NCBI RefSeq assembly: GCF_009727155.1
Contig: NZ_WNWM01000002.1
Coordinates: forward strand, 5,890,001 to 5,954,000
Direction: 5' to 3'
DNA: 64,000 nt
DNA from: Pseudoduganella dura
GTDB lineage: Bacteria > Pseudomonadota > Gammaproteobacteria > Burkholderiales > Burkholderiaceae_D
The notes below the pieces were generated by a model. That model did not search any database and was not told where the DNA came from. It saw only the letters and a program-made list of their open reading frames with translations. Both the position numbers and the translations under genes were made by a program. Numbering within the stretch: the first letter of the stretch is position 1; each line of letters starts with the position of its first letter. This document shows, piece after piece, positions 58,657-64,000 of the stretch.

Positions 58657-58750
58657 GCCGCATCGCTGCCGCCGTTCCGGCACTTGTATTGCCGATGCAA
58701 TTCCGCTACGATTCGTTTCCCATCAACCCGTCGATCACGAGGAGGCAACC

Positions 58751-58822
58751 ATGCAATACACGATCACCCGCAACGCCTTCAATATCCGGGTCGGTGCCGT
58801 CGCGCAGGCAAGCATCAGCTAG
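58751..58822 (+). CDS. 23-residue small ORF with strong ribosome site ahead of rtcB2
   Basis: ATG 58751 is preceded by GGAGG at 58741, an excellent ribosome site, and opens a 23-codon frame (MQYTITRNAFNIRVGAVAQA then SIS) ending 49 bp before the RtcB2 start. It may be a regulatory leader peptide for the ribosome-repair pair or a small functional protein. No homology recognised. Confidence 0.5.
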   Translation: MQYTITRNAFNIRVGAVAQASIS

Positions 58823-58871
58823 TCCGCTCGTCCCCCTCCCGGCATTCAGCAGATATGAATACGGGAAAGTA

Positions 58872-60065
58872 ATGGGAAATTTCATCTCATCGGTTGCGGA
58901 CCGCGCAACCATCGTCGCCTCTCCACGCCTGTGGCTGGAGGGTGCGGCAATACAGCAACTCATCAAGACATCGCAACTGCCGGGCATGATCCGGGCCGTC
59001 GGCATGCCGGATCTCCATCCCGGCCGCGGCTATCCGGTCGGTGCCACGTTCTTCAGCGCCGGGCGTTTTTATCCGGCACTGGTCGGCAGCGATATCGGTT
59101 GCGGCGTGTCGGTCTGGAGCACCGACCTGCCGGCGGCCAAGTACAAGCTCGACAAGCTGGACCGGCTGATCGGCAATCTCGACGGCCCGATGGCGGACGC
59201 TGAACTGGACAGGATCGCCGACGCGTTTCCCGCCCTGGCGGCCCGACTGGAAGCGGTGCGGGCATGCCTGGCCGCCGCCGGACTGGACGCGAAGCACATG
59301 CGCTCGGCCGGCACCATCGGCCGCGGCAATCACTTCGCGGAAATCCAGCGTGTCGAGAGCGTGGTGGACGGGGCAGGGCCGCCGGCCGCGCTGGTCGACC
59401 CGAAACGCCTGAACCTCGTGGTGCACAGCGGCTCGCGCGGGCTGGGGGAGAGCATCCTGCGCGAACATGTCGATGCGTTCGGACACGGCGGCCTGATCGA
59501 CGGGAGCGACGAGTCCACCGCGTACCTGGCGCGCCACGAGGCCGCGGTGGCCTTCGCCGAAGTCAACCGCTGGCTGATCGCCGCGAGGATCTGCGTGCGG
59601 CTCGGGGCGGAAGCGGAGCGCCGGATCGACGTCAACCACAACACCGTCACGCAGGAGTGCTTCGATGGCATGCGCGGCTGGATCCACCGGAAAGGCGCGA
59701 CCCCGATGGCCGGCGAAGCGATCCTGATACCCGGCTCGCGCGATGCGCTGAGTTATCTCGTCGCGCCGGTCGCCGGCGCGGCGGAGTCGAGCCTGGGCTC
59801 GCTCGCCCACGGCGCCGGCAGGAAGTGGCAGCGGTCCGATTGCAGGGGGCGCCTCGAAAAAACGGGCGTGCTGAAAGAACCCGGCAAAGGTGCCCTGGGC
59901 AGCCGGGTCATCTGCGACGACCGCAACCTGGTGTTCGAGGAAGCGGGCGCGGCCTACAAGCCGATCGACACGGTCATCGACAGCCTGGTCGGCGCGGGGC
60001 TGGTCCGGGTCATGGCGCAGTTTCGGCCGGTACTGACGTACAAGACGCGCGGGGAGTGCTGCTGA
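58872..60065 (+). CDS. rtcB: RtcB-family RNA ligase, PrfH-associated (RtcB2)
   Basis: A 397-residue GTP/Mn-dependent RNA ligase joining 2',3'-cyclic phosphate or 3'-phosphate ends to 5'-OH. Metal and catalytic blocks are present: GSDIGCGVSVW (Cys/Asp ligands), IGRGNHFAE, VVHSGSRGLG and DVNHNTV; the guanylylated His is in SLAHGAGRKWQRSD. Shorter than classical RtcB (about 408-480), as in the RtcB2 subgroup. ATG 58872 follows a purine-rich stretch. Its stop shares a base with the prfH start (TGATG), so they are coupled. RtcB2-PrfH pairs are reported to repair and rescue ribosomes cut in the 16S decoding centre. Confidence 0.93.
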   Translation: MGNFISSVADRATIVASPRLWLEGAAIQQLIKTSQLPGMIRAVGMPDLHPGRGYPVGATFFSAGRFYPALVGSDIGCGVSVWSTDLPAAKYKLDKLDRLIGNLDGPMADAELDRIADAFPALAARLEAVRACLAAAGLDAKHMRSAGTIGRGNHFAEIQRVESVVDGAGPPAALVDPKRLNLVVHSGSRGLGESILREHVDAFGHGGLIDGSDESTAYLARHEAAVAFAEVNRWLIAARICVRLGAEAERRIDVNHNTVTQECFDGMRGWIHRKGATPMAGEAILIPGSRDALSYLVAPVAGAAESSLGSLAHGAGRKWQRSDCRGRLEKTGVLKEPGKGALGSRVICDDRNLVFEEAGAAYKPIDTVIDSLVGAGLVRVMAQFRPVLTYKTRGECC

Positions 60066-60769
60066 TGACGATCCTTCTTCAGATCTCCGCCAATACCGGG
60101 CCGGACGAATGCTGCCTCGGCGTCGTCAAGATGCTGGCGCATGTCGACGCGGCGGCGGCGCGGGCCGGCCTGGCGCTGCATGTCGTCGAGGAAGTGCCGG
60201 CCGGGCGGCGCGGCACGCTGCGATCGGTATTGCTTTGCGTCGAAGGCGACGGCGAATCGCGCCGCCTATTCGCCGAACGCCAGGCCGGCACCGTGCTGTG
60301 GCGTTGCCCCAGCCCGTATCGCCCCCGTCACCCGCGCAGGAACTGGTTTCTCGATGTCGCCGTGTTCGCACCGCCCGAACGGGAATTCGAGCGGGAAGTC
60401 GTGTTCGAGACGATGCGTTCGTCGGGCCCCGGCGGGCAGCATGTGAACAGGACGGAGACCGCCGTGCGGGCCACGCACGTGGCCACCGGGCTGTCGGTCA
60501 AGGTGGAGGGATCGCGCAGCCAGGTGGCGAACAAGGCCGCGGCGCTGGCGCTGCTCGATGCGAAGCTGCAGGCCCATGTCGACGGCGGCATGGCCCGCGA
60601 CAAGGCCGCGCGCCGGGCGCGGCATGCCGCGCGGCCGGGCGGGGCGGTGGTACGGCGCTTTATCGGCCCGGCATTCAGTGGGCCGGAATTCAGCGAACCG
60701 GGATTGAGTGAGGTGTGGCCTGCTAATAAAGTTGGCCACAAGCTAACAAAGTCCGCCACAAAACAATAA
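60065..60769 (+). CDS. prfH: Peptide chain release factor H, C-terminus altered by a transposon
   Basis: A 234-residue class I release-factor-like protein with the catalytic GGQ (residues 123-125, SSGPGGQHVNRTETAV) and the RF-H layout without a codon-recognition domain. It acts with RtcB2 to release stalled peptides from damaged ribosomes. The last residues, VWPANKVGHKLTKSATKQ, are encoded by the left end of the inserted element at 60714. Removing the element and one TGAGG copy gives ...GLSEA followed by TGA, a 217-residue protein. The catalytic part is intact, so function is probably retained. Confidence 0.92.
   Translation: MTILLQISANTGPDECCLGVVKMLAHVDAAAARAGLALHVVEEVPAGRRGTLRSVLLCVEGDGESRRLFAERQAGTVLWRCPSPYRPRHPRRNWFLDVAVFAPPEREFEREVVFETMRSSGPGGQHVNRTETAVRATHVATGLSVKVEGSRSQVANKAAALALLDAKLQAHVDGGMARDKAARRARHAARPGGAVVRRFIGPAFSGPEFSEPGLSEVWPANKVGHKLTKSATKQ
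60709..60713. repeat. Left target-site duplication TGAGG
   Basis: TGAGG directly before the element end; the identical pentamer lies at 63551-63555. Five-base duplications are produced by Tn7- and Tn5053-type transposases. Confidence 0.9.
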
Positions 60770-60780
60770 AGTTCGCCACA
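60721..60780. repeat. Left-end TnsB-like binding repeats, three 20-bp units
   Basis: TGCTAATAAAGTTGGCCACA (60721), AGCTAACAAAGTCCGCCACA (60741) and AAACAATAAAGTTCGCCACA (60761) follow one another without gap. They match the AATAAAG-containing transposase sites of Tn7 in general form. Confidence 0.85.
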
Positions 60781-60934
60781 ACGGCCGCCGGTACCTAGGG
60801 TGCCAGGCCTGGGGTCGTGCGCCCATCGTCTTGTCCTGTCAGCACCAAGCTTGTAGGCTGAGCCATACCTACCGGCTGCTTTAGCCTAGAAGCGGTCTTA
60901 ACTACCCACGAGTGGGGCATATTGCTTGAAGGTA

Positions 60935-61411
60935 ATGGAACGTATTGCGACTTTGGAAAATTTAGAAAAGTTCCTTGAGGTGGACTTGGGACGGTATGAA
61001 CCGAAACCAAGGATTAACCATTCTAGCATCCGCATATCTCAAGCATGCGGTAATATTGCCCGGTCCATTAAAAGTGGTGACAGAGACGCAGCAAAAGTTG
61101 GATATAAAATAATCGTGAGGGACCCGCACCTTCCTTTCGGGAAGCTTATAAAAAGTGGAATTGCGCGCGCATTGAAGCAACGTGTCAATCTGATGTCTCC
61201 GATGGAAAAAGCCGGATTTGTTGAGAAAACTTCAAGTCTTCTGAATCTCCCGTTCTGCCCACGCGAGACTGAGGACTACTGCAAGGTGGTAAGGAAGCTT
61301 GGATCGGCGGCCATGCAACTCGTTATAGAAAATACGCACGCAAGAAATGAAAAATCCATTCGACTTTTGACATATCTGATTCAATCAAATACATTGCGGG
61401 AAGACCTGTAA
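60935..61411 (+). CDS. Cargo protein of unknown function
   Basis: A 158-residue soluble, mostly helical protein, not recognised. It is basic in the middle (GKLIKSGIARALKQRVN) and begins MERIATLENLEKFLEVDLGRYEPKP. ATG 60935 is preferred to an in-frame TTG at 60926; AAGG lies only two bases before it, so the ribosome site is weak. AT-rich codon use differs sharply from the chromosome. First gene inside the transposon. The 150 bp before it hold only the element's left end and no clear gene. Confidence 0.65.
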   Translation: MERIATLENLEKFLEVDLGRYEPKPRINHSSIRISQACGNIARSIKSGDRDAAKVGYKIIVRDPHLPFGKLIKSGIARALKQRVNLMSPMEKAGFVEKTSSLLNLPFCPRETEDYCKVVRKLGSAAMQLVIENTHARNEKSIRLLTYLIQSNTLREDL

Positions 61412-61655
61412 TTTTGGAAGTAAGGTCCGCTTTTACAAGACGTGAAGGTCTGTCCTTAATCGTTATGAAATGTGATTCAATGGTAGCTCGCGACGAGCTG
61501 CGCACGAATTGTCCTGGAGCGGCTGTGGACGTAGGATCAGACCAGAGTCCGCTTGCAGGCGCTTCTGAGCCTAATGTCCACTTGGTTTCTATGCTCCAAC
61601 TTCCAAGCAGATTTCGCCCCAGGTCGCGCGAACCAGAATTTCGACTGATCATCAC

Positions 61656-62204
61656 ATGAACATCAAGCCATTCGCATCAATACGCAGTCTCTCATACCAC
61701 TTCAGCATGGCATGGCCGGCTGGAGCCGTGCGCACTGCGGCAATGGCGCTTCTTCTTGTCACGACAAGCGCATGGGCAACTGGCGATGCCCCGCTGCCCA
61801 CGCCCGCCAACGCACTGAAAGCGTCCAGAGCGGTCTTCGATCTGTGCATCCAGGCACAGGACTGCGACCGAAACGCGTGCGCGAGCAATGGCGGCCTGTC
61901 GTACTGTTACTACGAAGCTCAACTTCATTGGGATAAGAATCTTCATGCCGCCGAGCGGTCGCTCCGCGAACAGGGCGGATGGTGTGCGCGCCACTGGAGG
62001 AGCCTAGCAAAGGAGCATGCGGCTTTTCGCCGTCGTGCCATGGCGGCGAAGTCCCTCGCTGATGGCCCGTATGGTTCCGATCATGACCTTGGCTTGCTGC
62101 TGGCTCAACAGCAGTACGAACTTGCGTATCATTTGCTGAGCAATAGTGCGTGCAACAAGATTGCATCGGTTCCCAGAAATTCCACGATGAGTAGTCGCCG
62201 CTGA
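61656..62204 (+). CDS. Exported Cys-rich cargo protein, LprI/DUF1311-like
   Basis: A 182-residue protein with a signal peptide (VRTAAMALLLVTTSAWAT). The mature region has six or so Cys (CIQAQDCDRNACASNGGLSYC; WCARHW; SNSACNK) and the helical pattern SLAKEHAAFRRRAMAAKS ... LLLAQQQYELAYHLL, which resembles the LprI lysozyme-inhibitor/DUF1311 repeat. That likeness is tentative. It is higher in GC than the neighbouring cargo. The 244 bp before it (61412-61655) contain short overlapping frames on both strands that I could not judge real. Confidence 0.65.
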   Translation: MNIKPFASIRSLSYHFSMAWPAGAVRTAAMALLLVTTSAWATGDAPLPTPANALKASRAVFDLCIQAQDCDRNACASNGGLSYCYYEAQLHWDKNLHAAERSLREQGGWCARHWRSLAKEHAAFRRRAMAAKSLADGPYGSDHDLGLLLAQQQYELAYHLLSNSACNKIASVPRNSTMSSRR

Positions 62205-62275
62205 TCGCATAGAAGCGGTTGCATGCAGCAAAAATCCGACTTTTAACCTAAAAACCAAATTCTGAAGCTACCTTT

Positions 62276-62800
62276 ATGGCTCAAAAAATAGCTGTCTTTT
62301 TAATCACGGTACTGTTCGCGGCTGGAATCAGTCCGAACATGGCACATGCGGCGAGCAACCATGCCCATATGGCGGAATGTAGAGAATTGTTCCTTTCATC
62401 ATTTCCAATTGAAAAACTCGATGCTTTGCTCGGCACTAAACTGCAACTTCAAGTAGAACATTCACACAACAATTGTGTATTCAGCTTTGCTAGCGAAGGC
62501 GGCAACGAGAATGTGCTTTTAATAGATTTCTCTCCACGCGAGGAATCGATTGCTATTTACGAATGGAGCCGCAAGAATGTCACCCATCCACTTGTTGCAG
62601 CCGAGCACTTCCCGGGCGTGATCTACGGATTTTCTTATAAAAAATTTGGAATGAATGTTGTCGAAGTCCTGACGGCCGACTACGACTGGATTACCGTTTG
62701 CGTGTCGACCAAGAAACCGGAAGATGTGTCGTATCAGGTTGCAAAGCTTTCCATGGATTTTGTTCAGACGCCACAAATGAGGGCATGGGTTGTGCGGTAA
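62276..62800 (+). CDS. Exported cargo protein of unknown function
   Basis: A 174-residue protein with a clear signal peptide (IAVFLITVLFAAGISPNMAHA). The mature part is a mixed alpha/beta domain with three Cys (MAECRELF, NNCVFSF, WITVCVS) and no motif I recognise. It follows the LprI-like gene by 71 bp in the same direction; both being exported suggests an envelope function for the cargo. Confidence 0.65.
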   Translation: MAQKIAVFLITVLFAAGISPNMAHAASNHAHMAECRELFLSSFPIEKLDALLGTKLQLQVEHSHNNCVFSFASEGGNENVLLIDFSPREESIAIYEWSRKNVTHPLVAAEHFPGVIYGFSYKKFGMNVVEVLTADYDWITVCVSTKKPEDVSYQVAKLSMDFVQTPQMRAWVVR

Positions 62801-62955
62801 TAAAGGCGACGGACCATGCTTTTTCCAGCCAAGGGAAACCTCCCGTGAAAAGGTATCATGAACAACGATAAAATCGTCAAAATCCAAATCCAGGTCTTCA
62901 TGTACAAAACTACGGTTTACTGCTCAGGCGCGCTACCAGTACAGACATCCCATCC

Positions 62956-63342
62956 ATGATACGGCAGTCTGTGGTAGAAAATATCCTCTCGGAGCCGACG
63001 CATGTCACAAACCAAATGTACGAGGATTTTCTGGATGAGATGAGCTGTGGCTGGGTTGTAGAAATTGACGACAAGATCGTCGCTTTTTGCTATGCGGATA
63101 AAGCAAACGCTTTTATTTTGGCGCTCTTTGTGCGTCCGGGCTATGAAGGGAGAGGCTTTGGACAATCACTGCTCAAGCAATCAGTCGACTGGCTGTTCGG
63201 GATAGGTCATAAGTGTGCGTACCTCACTACCGGCCTCAATACCAGAGCAGATCGCTTTTATTCGGAACAAGGAAGGGTGCGTGCGCCCGTTAGCTCTATG
63301 GAAGTCGGATACTCGCTGACCAAGCCGCGAACAGTTGAGTAA
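62956..63342 (+). CDS. GNAT-family N-acetyltransferase (cargo)
   Basis: A 128-residue acetyltransferase. The acetyl-CoA-binding motif A is clear: ALFVRPGYEGRGFGQSLLKQSVDWL, with the Q/RxxGxG/A pattern as EGRGFG; a motif B-like TTGLNTRADRFYSEQGRVR follows. It is shorter than many GNATs (about 150), lacking part of the N-terminal strand; an upstream non-ATG start is possible. Last gene before the right end of the transposon. The acceptor is unknown. Confidence 0.8.
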   Translation: MIRQSVVENILSEPTHVTNQMYEDFLDEMSCGWVVEIDDKIVAFCYADKANAFILALFVRPGYEGRGFGQSLLKQSVDWLFGIGHKCAYLTTGLNTRADRFYSEQGRVRAPVSSMEVGYSLTKPRTVE

Positions 63343-63409
63343 GCTTTTAAAGCCAATGTCCGCAATGGGGCGGGAGCAGACTGTCGGGCAACGCACATGG
63401 CTAGCAGGC

Positions 63410-63548
63410 TGTGGCAAACTTTATTGTCGCAAACTGCCTATCTGGAACGGATTTTCGCGCAGTTGTGGCAAACATTGTTTGCGCCGACAACCTGCCTAAA
63501 TCGTCCTGCCTCGTAGAGGAACTTGTGGCAGGCTTTATTGTTCGACTA
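63410..63548. repeat. Right-end TnsB-like binding repeats, three spaced units
   Basis: Units in the inverse orientation to the left end: TGTGGCAAACTTTATTGTCG (63410), TTGTGGCAAACATTGTTTG (63463) and TTGTGGCAGGCTTTATTG (63523). The outermost unit reads out to the terminal ACA at 63548-63550. Confidence 0.8.
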
Positions 63549-63550
63549 CA

Positions 63551-63555
63551 TGAGG
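63551..63555. repeat. Right target-site duplication TGAGG
   Basis: Exact copy of the pentamer at 60709-60713, directly after the terminal ACA. The bases that follow (CTTGA) complete the original Ala codon and TGA stop of prfH. Confidence 0.9.
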
Positions 63556-63590: not shown

Positions 63591-64000
63591 TCAGCGCACC
63601 AGGCAAGGCTTCTTGTTGTCGAACTGCCAGTTCGGCACCAGGAACTGCATCGCGGCGGCGTCGTCGCGCGCGCCCAGGCCCATGTTTTTGTAGGCCTGGT
63701 GCGCCTTGTCCAGTTCCGCCGGATCGAGCTCGATGCCCAGGCCCGGCTTTTGCGGAATGCGGATGAAGCCGCCTTCGATCTTCAGCGGGTCCTTCGTCAG
63801 GCGCTGGCCGTCCTGCCAGATCCAGTGCGTGTCGATCGCCGTCACCTTGCCCGGCGCGGCGGCGCCCACGTGCGTGAACATCGCCAGCGAGATGTCGAAG
63901 TGGTTGTTCGAATGCGAACCCCACGTGAGGCCGAACATCTGGCATAGCTGCGCCACGCGCACCGAACCCTGCATGGTCCAGAAGTGCGGGTCGGCCAGCG
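63591..64000 (-). CDS. gudD: Glucarate dehydratase, C-terminal part (runs off window)
   Basis: The last 135 or so residues of an enolase-superfamily dehydratase converting D-glucarate to 5-keto-4-deoxyglucarate. [25 protein letters not shown] contains the catalytic His region, followed by [37 protein letters not shown] and the terminal KPCLVR, closely following E. coli GudD. The gene continues past the right edge. It converges with prfH; without the transposon the two stop codons were about 30 bp apart. Confidence 0.92.

Follow-up and report, generated by a model that had tools for sequence, protein, structure and literature searches.

How did a 2837-bp block of DNA that carries Tn7-like ends and encodes no transposase come to lie at the 3' end of prfH in the chromosome of Pseudoduganella dura? 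We addressed this question in a window of 64,000 nucleotides (NZ_WNWM01000002.1, positions 5,890,001 to 5,954,000; G000:C2:5890001-5954000), taken from a complete 6.95-Mb genome (2 contigs); positions given without a contig name are those of the window. A sequence-only reading of this DNA had described the block as a mobile unit of the Tn7 class with cargo and no transposase. Our analysis points the same way: the block is very probably a Tn7-like transposon of the non-autonomous kind, in effect a mini-Tn7 of natural origin, and the TnsABC proteins of a related full-length element probably inserted it in trans.

The element spans 60714..63550 (no strand is assigned), begins with TGT, ends with ACA and is flanked by two copies of the 5-bp target-site duplication (TSD) TGAGG, at 60709..60713 on the left and 63551..63555 on the right. 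Its tight, Tn7 right-like end lies on the prfH side and holds three putative TnsB-type sites of 17 bases on the plus strand in 20-bp steps (60725..60741, 60745..60761 and 60765..60781). The spread, Tn7 left-like end holds three inverted 17-base sites on the minus strand, an outer (63523..63539), a middle (63463..63479) and an inner one (63409..63425), the outer step being 60 bp and the inner 54 bp. At both ends the first letter of AATAAAG is base 12 of the element, and both outer sites stand in the register of the authentic Tn7 right end, which adjoins tnsA on plasmid R721. The boundaries that the sequence-only reading had drawn from the TGT/ACA termini, the three plus three inverted repeats, their tight versus spread spacing and the flanking TGAGG were right to the base; the length of 2837 bp is confirmed, and the interval 60709-63555 given there is the element plus both TGAGG copies. 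The available portions of a survey of Tn7-like cargo describe such elements as bearing arrays of ~20-bp inverted repeats (TnsB sites) at each end, the outermost about 12 bp from the boundary (PMC8649781). The 2837-bp element thus displays the features by which a Tn7-like DNA element is recognised, namely arrays of TnsB-type sites at both ends and a 5-bp duplication.

Scored with a position-weight matrix, the six end sites reach 20.0-27.0 and are the top six of the 64-kb window, the seventh hit reaching 11.5; this matrix was trained on 58 sites from outside this genome, but an earlier matrix built in part from own-genome sites had served to choose them, and its independence is therefore incomplete. 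Shuffled sequences gave maxima of 13.3 (20 dinucleotide shuffles of the window) and 18.2 (200 shuffles of the element), none reaching 20. With the ends fixed by register, the arithmetical chance of a matching 5-bp flank is 1/1024. Base composition follows the same limits, with a G+C content of 50.0% within the element versus 66.5% in the 3 kb to its left and 65.3% in the 450 bp to its right, up to the window edge.

Complete transposons with the same end code exist in related strains. The exact end pattern, searched in 84,980 genomes, returned 11 stretches, ten from Burkholderiales and one from a Christensenella metagenome-assembled genome. In Janthinobacterium sp. BJB426 (G331), a 25.6-kb element beside glmS (TIGR01135) has the TSD GCAGA and encodes, by Pfam, TnsA (PF08722, PF08721), TnsC, TnsD (PF15978) and a second TniQ, together with a TnsB of 728 amino acids (aa) that matches Tn7 TnsB (PDB 7pik) at E 7.5e-81. 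A second element, of 28.4 kb in genome G273, is likewise found beside glmS with the perfect TSD TCAGG; it encodes, by Pfam, TnsA, TnsC, TnsD and a second TniQ, as well as a TnsB 53% identical to that of G331, and its sites (AATAAAGTTCGCCACAA, GCCACAA type) match the site consensus of the 2837-bp element. In these complete relatives the tight array is on the glmS and tnsA side, as in Tn7, and the tight end of the 2837-bp element is 82.8% identical over 58 bp to the stretch L211. The repeats are probably TnsB-class binding sites, as first proposed. In addition, a conjugative Burkholderia contaminans plasmid (L255, NZ_CP042167.1) carries tnsABC and tniQ of this clade, at 51% identity, with a similar tight array, and therefore a vehicle exists. 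Two further groups of loci were considered as helpers and rejected: the PF09299 loci of the genus (20 regions scanned, without a matching end pair and with two isolated site-like hits in 1 of the 20) and the TnsA loci of the family (33 scanned, 30 with TnsA and 3 with PF09299; five of the loci had weak hits of at most 15.3, and none had a proper end).

The 2837-bp element itself encodes no TnsB, TnsC or TniQ/TnsD, and tblastn with the TnsA, TnsB, TnsC, TnsD and TniQ of the two complete elements found no Tns remnant within it. Consequently we file it as a non-autonomous derivative and not as a complete Tn7-like transposon, in agreement with the earlier view of a transposase-less unit with cargo only. 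The enzymes must then have come from elsewhere, or once have lain inside and been lost. Profile searches of the complete genome gave no match to TnsA (PF08722), TniQ (PF06527) or PF09299, and the TnsB of the Janthinobacterium element, used as a query, found no cognate TnsB in this genome and one distant homologue only (C2:2370027-2371598, 30% identity). Pfam alone is misleading here, as the TnsB of G331 escapes every Pfam model at 0.01 and that of G273 is picked up only by PF09299, below its cut-off. The single PF00665 match in the genome was rejected as a TnsB, being an IS30 family transposase (NF033563) inside another element, A. The sequence-only reading expected a mobilising relative elsewhere in the genome or in related strains. 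The second half of this expectation is borne out by the two complete tnsA-B-C-D plus tniQ elements; the first is not, the genome holding only other transposase-less elements and one seemingly inactivated TnsB-like gene.

The element belongs to a family of such units. Allowing one mismatch at most, the end pattern was found in 36/392 family genomes, and a reversed control pattern in a single listed genome (G211). A search of 100 genomes for the exact repeat found it in 2, own included. The repeats are therefore not a feature of all relatives; their presence in all of them, with the low-GC block and without any empty site, is what the earlier note had named as a refutation. Five of the 36 end-bearing genomes encode a TnsB that reaches 45% identity or more to the reference (G188, which is G331, and G340, G273, G379 and G117), a count made on an apparently identical sample with the best two candidates per genome scored, so that TnsBs of lower identity are uncounted and may serve such ends. 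Fourteen transposase-less elements of 0.27-20 kb were delimited in ten genomes. Four are in the own genome: the 2837-bp element and elements A, B (3.5 kb, flanks GCAGG/GCCGT) and C (9.9 kb, TSD absent at the called boundary), the last three found with the same site pattern. Genome G032 has one of 4171 bp (L038:5509-9679, TSD CGCAC) whose single large gene encodes a 1249-aa nSTAND1 NTPase with no PADLOC match, and G437 (= G338) has one of 14,423 bp at glmS and one of 6575 bp at a NUDIX gene. The others measure 682 bp (G435 = G335), 2083 bp (G364), 271 bp (G375), 1603 bp (G058), 2341 bp (G021), 2190 bp (G340) and 757 bp (G431).

In these 14 elements tblastn at E 1e-3 found no homologue of the G331 and G273 Tns proteins; for A, B and C the queries were TnsA, TnsB, TnsC, TnsD and TniQ. 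A perfect 5-bp TSD flanks eight of them (the 2837-bp element, A, the G032 element, both G437 elements and those of G364, G058 and G021), where 0.014 perfect matches are expected by chance among 14. The set leaves out ends without a delimited partner, partners not having been sought for every single-end match, and also the long pairs: 62.7 kb in G340 (C3), 38.9 kb in G448 (two tight arrays, flanks GCTGA/ACGGG) and 26.9 kb in G117, with a split TnsB frame and the far flank not fetched. Among these genomes, G340 alone combines a small element with a complete set of tns genes. Similarity to the 2837-bp element was detected by blastn in 5/9 small elements compared, always at the ends; its spread end and the corresponding end of the G032 element share 76.7% identity across 197 bp, around unrelated cargo.

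A route for the insertion can be proposed from the chemistry of Tn7. There, TnsB occupies the arrays of the two ends and makes the cuts together with TnsA, TnsC provides the connection to a selector of the TniQ type, and the 5-bp stagger of the joining step produces the duplication; TnsD targets glmS. TnsA, TnsB and TnsC from a related full-length element, with a target selector of the TniQ/TnsD type, would pair the two three-site ends, cut at TGT/ACA and insert the element where prfH had been cut with a stagger, close to its 3' end; this joining would leave the TGAGG repeat and give prfH a new 3' tail. We infer that TnsABC of the tnsABCD clade described above made the insertion and acted in trans; a selector of the TniQ/TnsD type would have chosen the site. 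The second TniQ of the two complete elements could serve another target pathway, beside the glmS-directed TnsD. A two-pathway habit of Tn7-like elements is described in the available portions of PMC11406308.

The insertion site shows what such an event would have done. The open reading frame (ORF) of prfH (60065..60769, plus strand, TIGR03072) is hit at its 3' end and runs into the element; when the element and one TGAGG are removed in silico, prfH has 217 codons and ends GLSEA, which places the insertion at its very 3' end. Insertion at attTn7, directly downstream of glmS, is not what is seen here. PrfH is encoded in 12/74 genomes of the genus, own included, and the nearest other PrfH genome (G045, 75% identity) has no element and a different downstream gene, homology stopping 69 bp short of the junction.

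Several observations weigh against this explanation of the block. A clean empty prfH site was not found among those 12/74 genomes, and the search brought up neither a second copy of this very element nor an empty-site strain, its own movement being therefore presumed; nor does the own genome hold a helper today. Six of the 14 elements lack a perfect duplication, matching at 4/5 bases (G435, G340) or at three bases at most (B, C, G375, G431), and the 62.7-kb G340 pair, 1 of 3 tight/spread pairs that enclose tnsABCD, has unequal flanks (ACTGT/CAAGC). Finally, one inherited insertion end is common to four related genomes at the NUDIX locus, which indicates that part of the family is old and not moving now.

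At this NUDIX locus, the elements L159:1480-8054 (6.6 kb) and L293:4928-7117 (2.2 kb) have flanks and outer ends ~93-94% identical and differing interiors, and the same NUDIX-side insertion end is also present in L307 and L308. The comparison suggests cargo turnover inside conserved ends. L159:1480-8054 has TAT/ATA termini instead of TGT/ACA, yet a perfect GCTGC duplication. An empty NUDIX site was not found in the genus of G340, where any match was obtained in 14/62 genomes: matches at 93-100% identity (four genomes) all carry the NUDIX-side end, the far end not being fetched for two, those at 70% (two genomes) have no site, with only one flank aligned, and the remaining matches are short.

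The strongest alternative, which we nevertheless regard as unlikely, is that the block began as a full Tn7-like transposon, which brought its own tns genes to this site and later shed them there, without ever being mobilised in trans. The NUDIX locus, with its inherited ends and differing interior in the two genomes compared in full, argues for it, as does element A of the own genome (C2:3069117-3089234; L033, L034). Element A is 20.1 kb long, lies directly after glmS, has the perfect TSD ACGCC and no tns genes, and carries type I restriction-modification (R-M), PtuA-like ATPase plus HNH, PDC-S06 and nSTAND3 genes; four of its proteins (HsdR, M, ATPase and HNH) have counterparts at 89-95% identity in the cargo of the complete G331 element, and it is probably a decayed full element. 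Another tight array starts right after its right TSD, which means that elements are stacked at attTn7. Element A shares the end code, a perfect TSD and the lack of tns genes with the 2837-bp element, and differs from it in size, in its position at glmS and in its R-M and other defence-type genes. Against decay in place stand the absence of any tns remnant from the 2837-bp element and the small perfect-TSD elements away from glmS in genomes without a TnsB close to the reference (G364, G058, G021) or, for G032, without TniQ and PF09299.

Much less probable, to the point of being hardly credible, is an origin in the Tn5053/Tn402 or another 5-bp-duplicating group instead of the Tn7 class. TGT/ACA termini and 5-bp duplications are common to several DDE transposon groups, and Tn5053/Tn402 elements have 25-bp terminal repeats and tniABQR. 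The three sites per end, the tight/spread asymmetry and AATAAAG at base 12 match Tn7 and the tnsABCD elements and not the Tn5053 terminal repeat, and the complete relatives with TnsA and TnsD contradict that class as well.

The lone TnsB-like gene of the own genome (C2:2369850-2371634; L208:7851-9635, minus strand) encodes a protein that matches Tn7 TnsB (7pik) at E 1.9e-59 over 538 residues, and no tnsA, tnsC or tnsD was found beside it. Relatives at 45-61% identity (in L061-L078) are present in 16/20 fetched genus regions derived from PF09299, and the same oxidoreductase-like ORF adjoins the gene in 11/14 displayed loci. For an alignment of the TnsB-like copies, 14 genes were tried and nine entered, the frame not being picked for five. 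The presumed second catalytic Asp is missing in 9/9 aligned copies, the presumed first Asp in 2/9 (own genome included) and the Glu in 2/9; these D, D and E positions, which we take to be catalytic, were placed through motifs common with Tn7 TnsB. Three listed copies (G018, G028, G036) have a stop, and the gene is therefore not intact everywhere. The protein looks inactivated and seems to be retained for another purpose, not as a helper; perhaps it is a domesticated, inactive Tn7-type transposase, and this dead-looking protein, which much of the genus has kept in place, might act for the host as an antagonist of cargo-only elements. That the block is merely a regulatory cluster of binding sites for this protein, and not mobile, would fit the one TnsB homologue, whose location is shared by much of the genus, and is the most improbable reading of all, since it leaves the TGT/ACA termini, the TSD and the sharp G+C and cargo boundary unexplained and no site cluster is seen in the fetched stretch around the gene.

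Beyond this single insertion, we tentatively propose that Oxalobacteraceae and their neighbours harbour a Tn7 satellite system: cargo-only elements between 0.3 and about 7 kb in size, with one end code, would be moved in trans by rarer helper elements with TnsABC and TniQ, also on conjugative plasmids; on balance the proposal is more likely wrong than right. If it is true, the ends would be exchangeable frames for unrelated small genes, like phage satellites using helper phages. The family also makes it possible to ask directly whether, in nature, Tn7-type machinery works on foreign elements as well as on the one that encodes it.

How new is such an element? Laboratory mini-Tn7 consists of two Tn7 ends around foreign DNA, with TnsABCD supplied in trans; the 2837-bp element differs from these vectors in being natural, without a marker and not at attTn7. 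Miniature inverted-repeat transposable elements (MITEs) and passenger MITE/TIME-like elements (TIME, Tn3-derived inverted-repeat miniature element) are transposase-less, consist of ends only and are moved by a relative. Unlike MITEs, the 2837-bp element has four ORFs, and Tn7-type arrays instead of a single terminal inverted repeat; the 271-, 682- and 757-bp members of the family are closer to MITEs. With the TnsABCD transposons that insert at glmS, Tn7 included, it shares TGT/ACA, AATAAAG at base 12, tight/spread arrays and the 5-bp TSD. It departs from Tn7 in having no tns gene, in its 2.8 kb, in its three tight-end sites and in not lying at glmS; in the available portions of PMC8649781, size medians of Tn7-like elements are 14-29 kb and the tight end of Tn7 has four sites. 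The same portions state that ends were sought within 125 kb of tnsB, and a survey anchored in this way cannot contain elements without tnsB. A description of natural, dispersed, cargo-only Tn7-like elements was not found in the open literature, as far as the available portions of its sources extend (including PMC8649781, PMC10293859, PMC11406308 and PMC8987985). Tn7-like ends with machinery and laboratory mini-Tn7 are thus already known, and natural, dispersed members with cargo only are what appears to be new. If such elements are common in some bacteria, gene traffic by Tn7-type transposition is undercounted.

The cargo consists of four ORFs, all on the plus strand. ORF 1 (60926..61411, 161 aa, or 158 aa from the ATG at 60935) belongs to a hypothetical-protein family in which the search found 47 members, ORF 1 among them, the named matches being from Janthinobacterium and Duganella. 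A paralogue with 78% identity is encoded at C2:375572 on the same chromosome, and the 12 kb fetched around it contain no TnsB-type sites. ORF 2 (61656..62204, 182 aa) contains cysteines and ORF 3 (62276..62800) encodes 174 aa; both have a signal-like N terminus, judged by eye. ORF 2 has 3 relatives besides itself and no Pfam, NCBIfam or PADLOC match; ORF 3 has 4, at 78-83% identity, and no family match. ORF 4 (62956..63342, 128 aa) encodes a GNAT acetyltransferase (PF00583, E 4.6e-14) and is the only one of the four with an assigned family. PADLOC, consulted for a defence role, gave no match for any of them. A plasmid search matched neither the element DNA nor ORF 1, the end pattern had 0 matches in viral_contigs, and a promoter/terminator scan stayed near chance.

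Outside the element, rtcB (58689..60065, plus strand; NF007153, TIGR03073) is the upstream neighbour of prfH, and the convergent neighbour on the other side is the 3' part of the glucarate dehydratase gene gudD (63591..63998, minus strand), a part that covers positions 315-441 of TIGR03247. Finally, a transposase of the IS1182 insertion sequence (IS) family lies just inside one end of four elements, as if this IS prefers these ends: two are matched by NF033551 (L033:974-2509 and L163:9579-11075), and two are IS1182-like by eye (L036:1825-3407 and L167:11868-13412).

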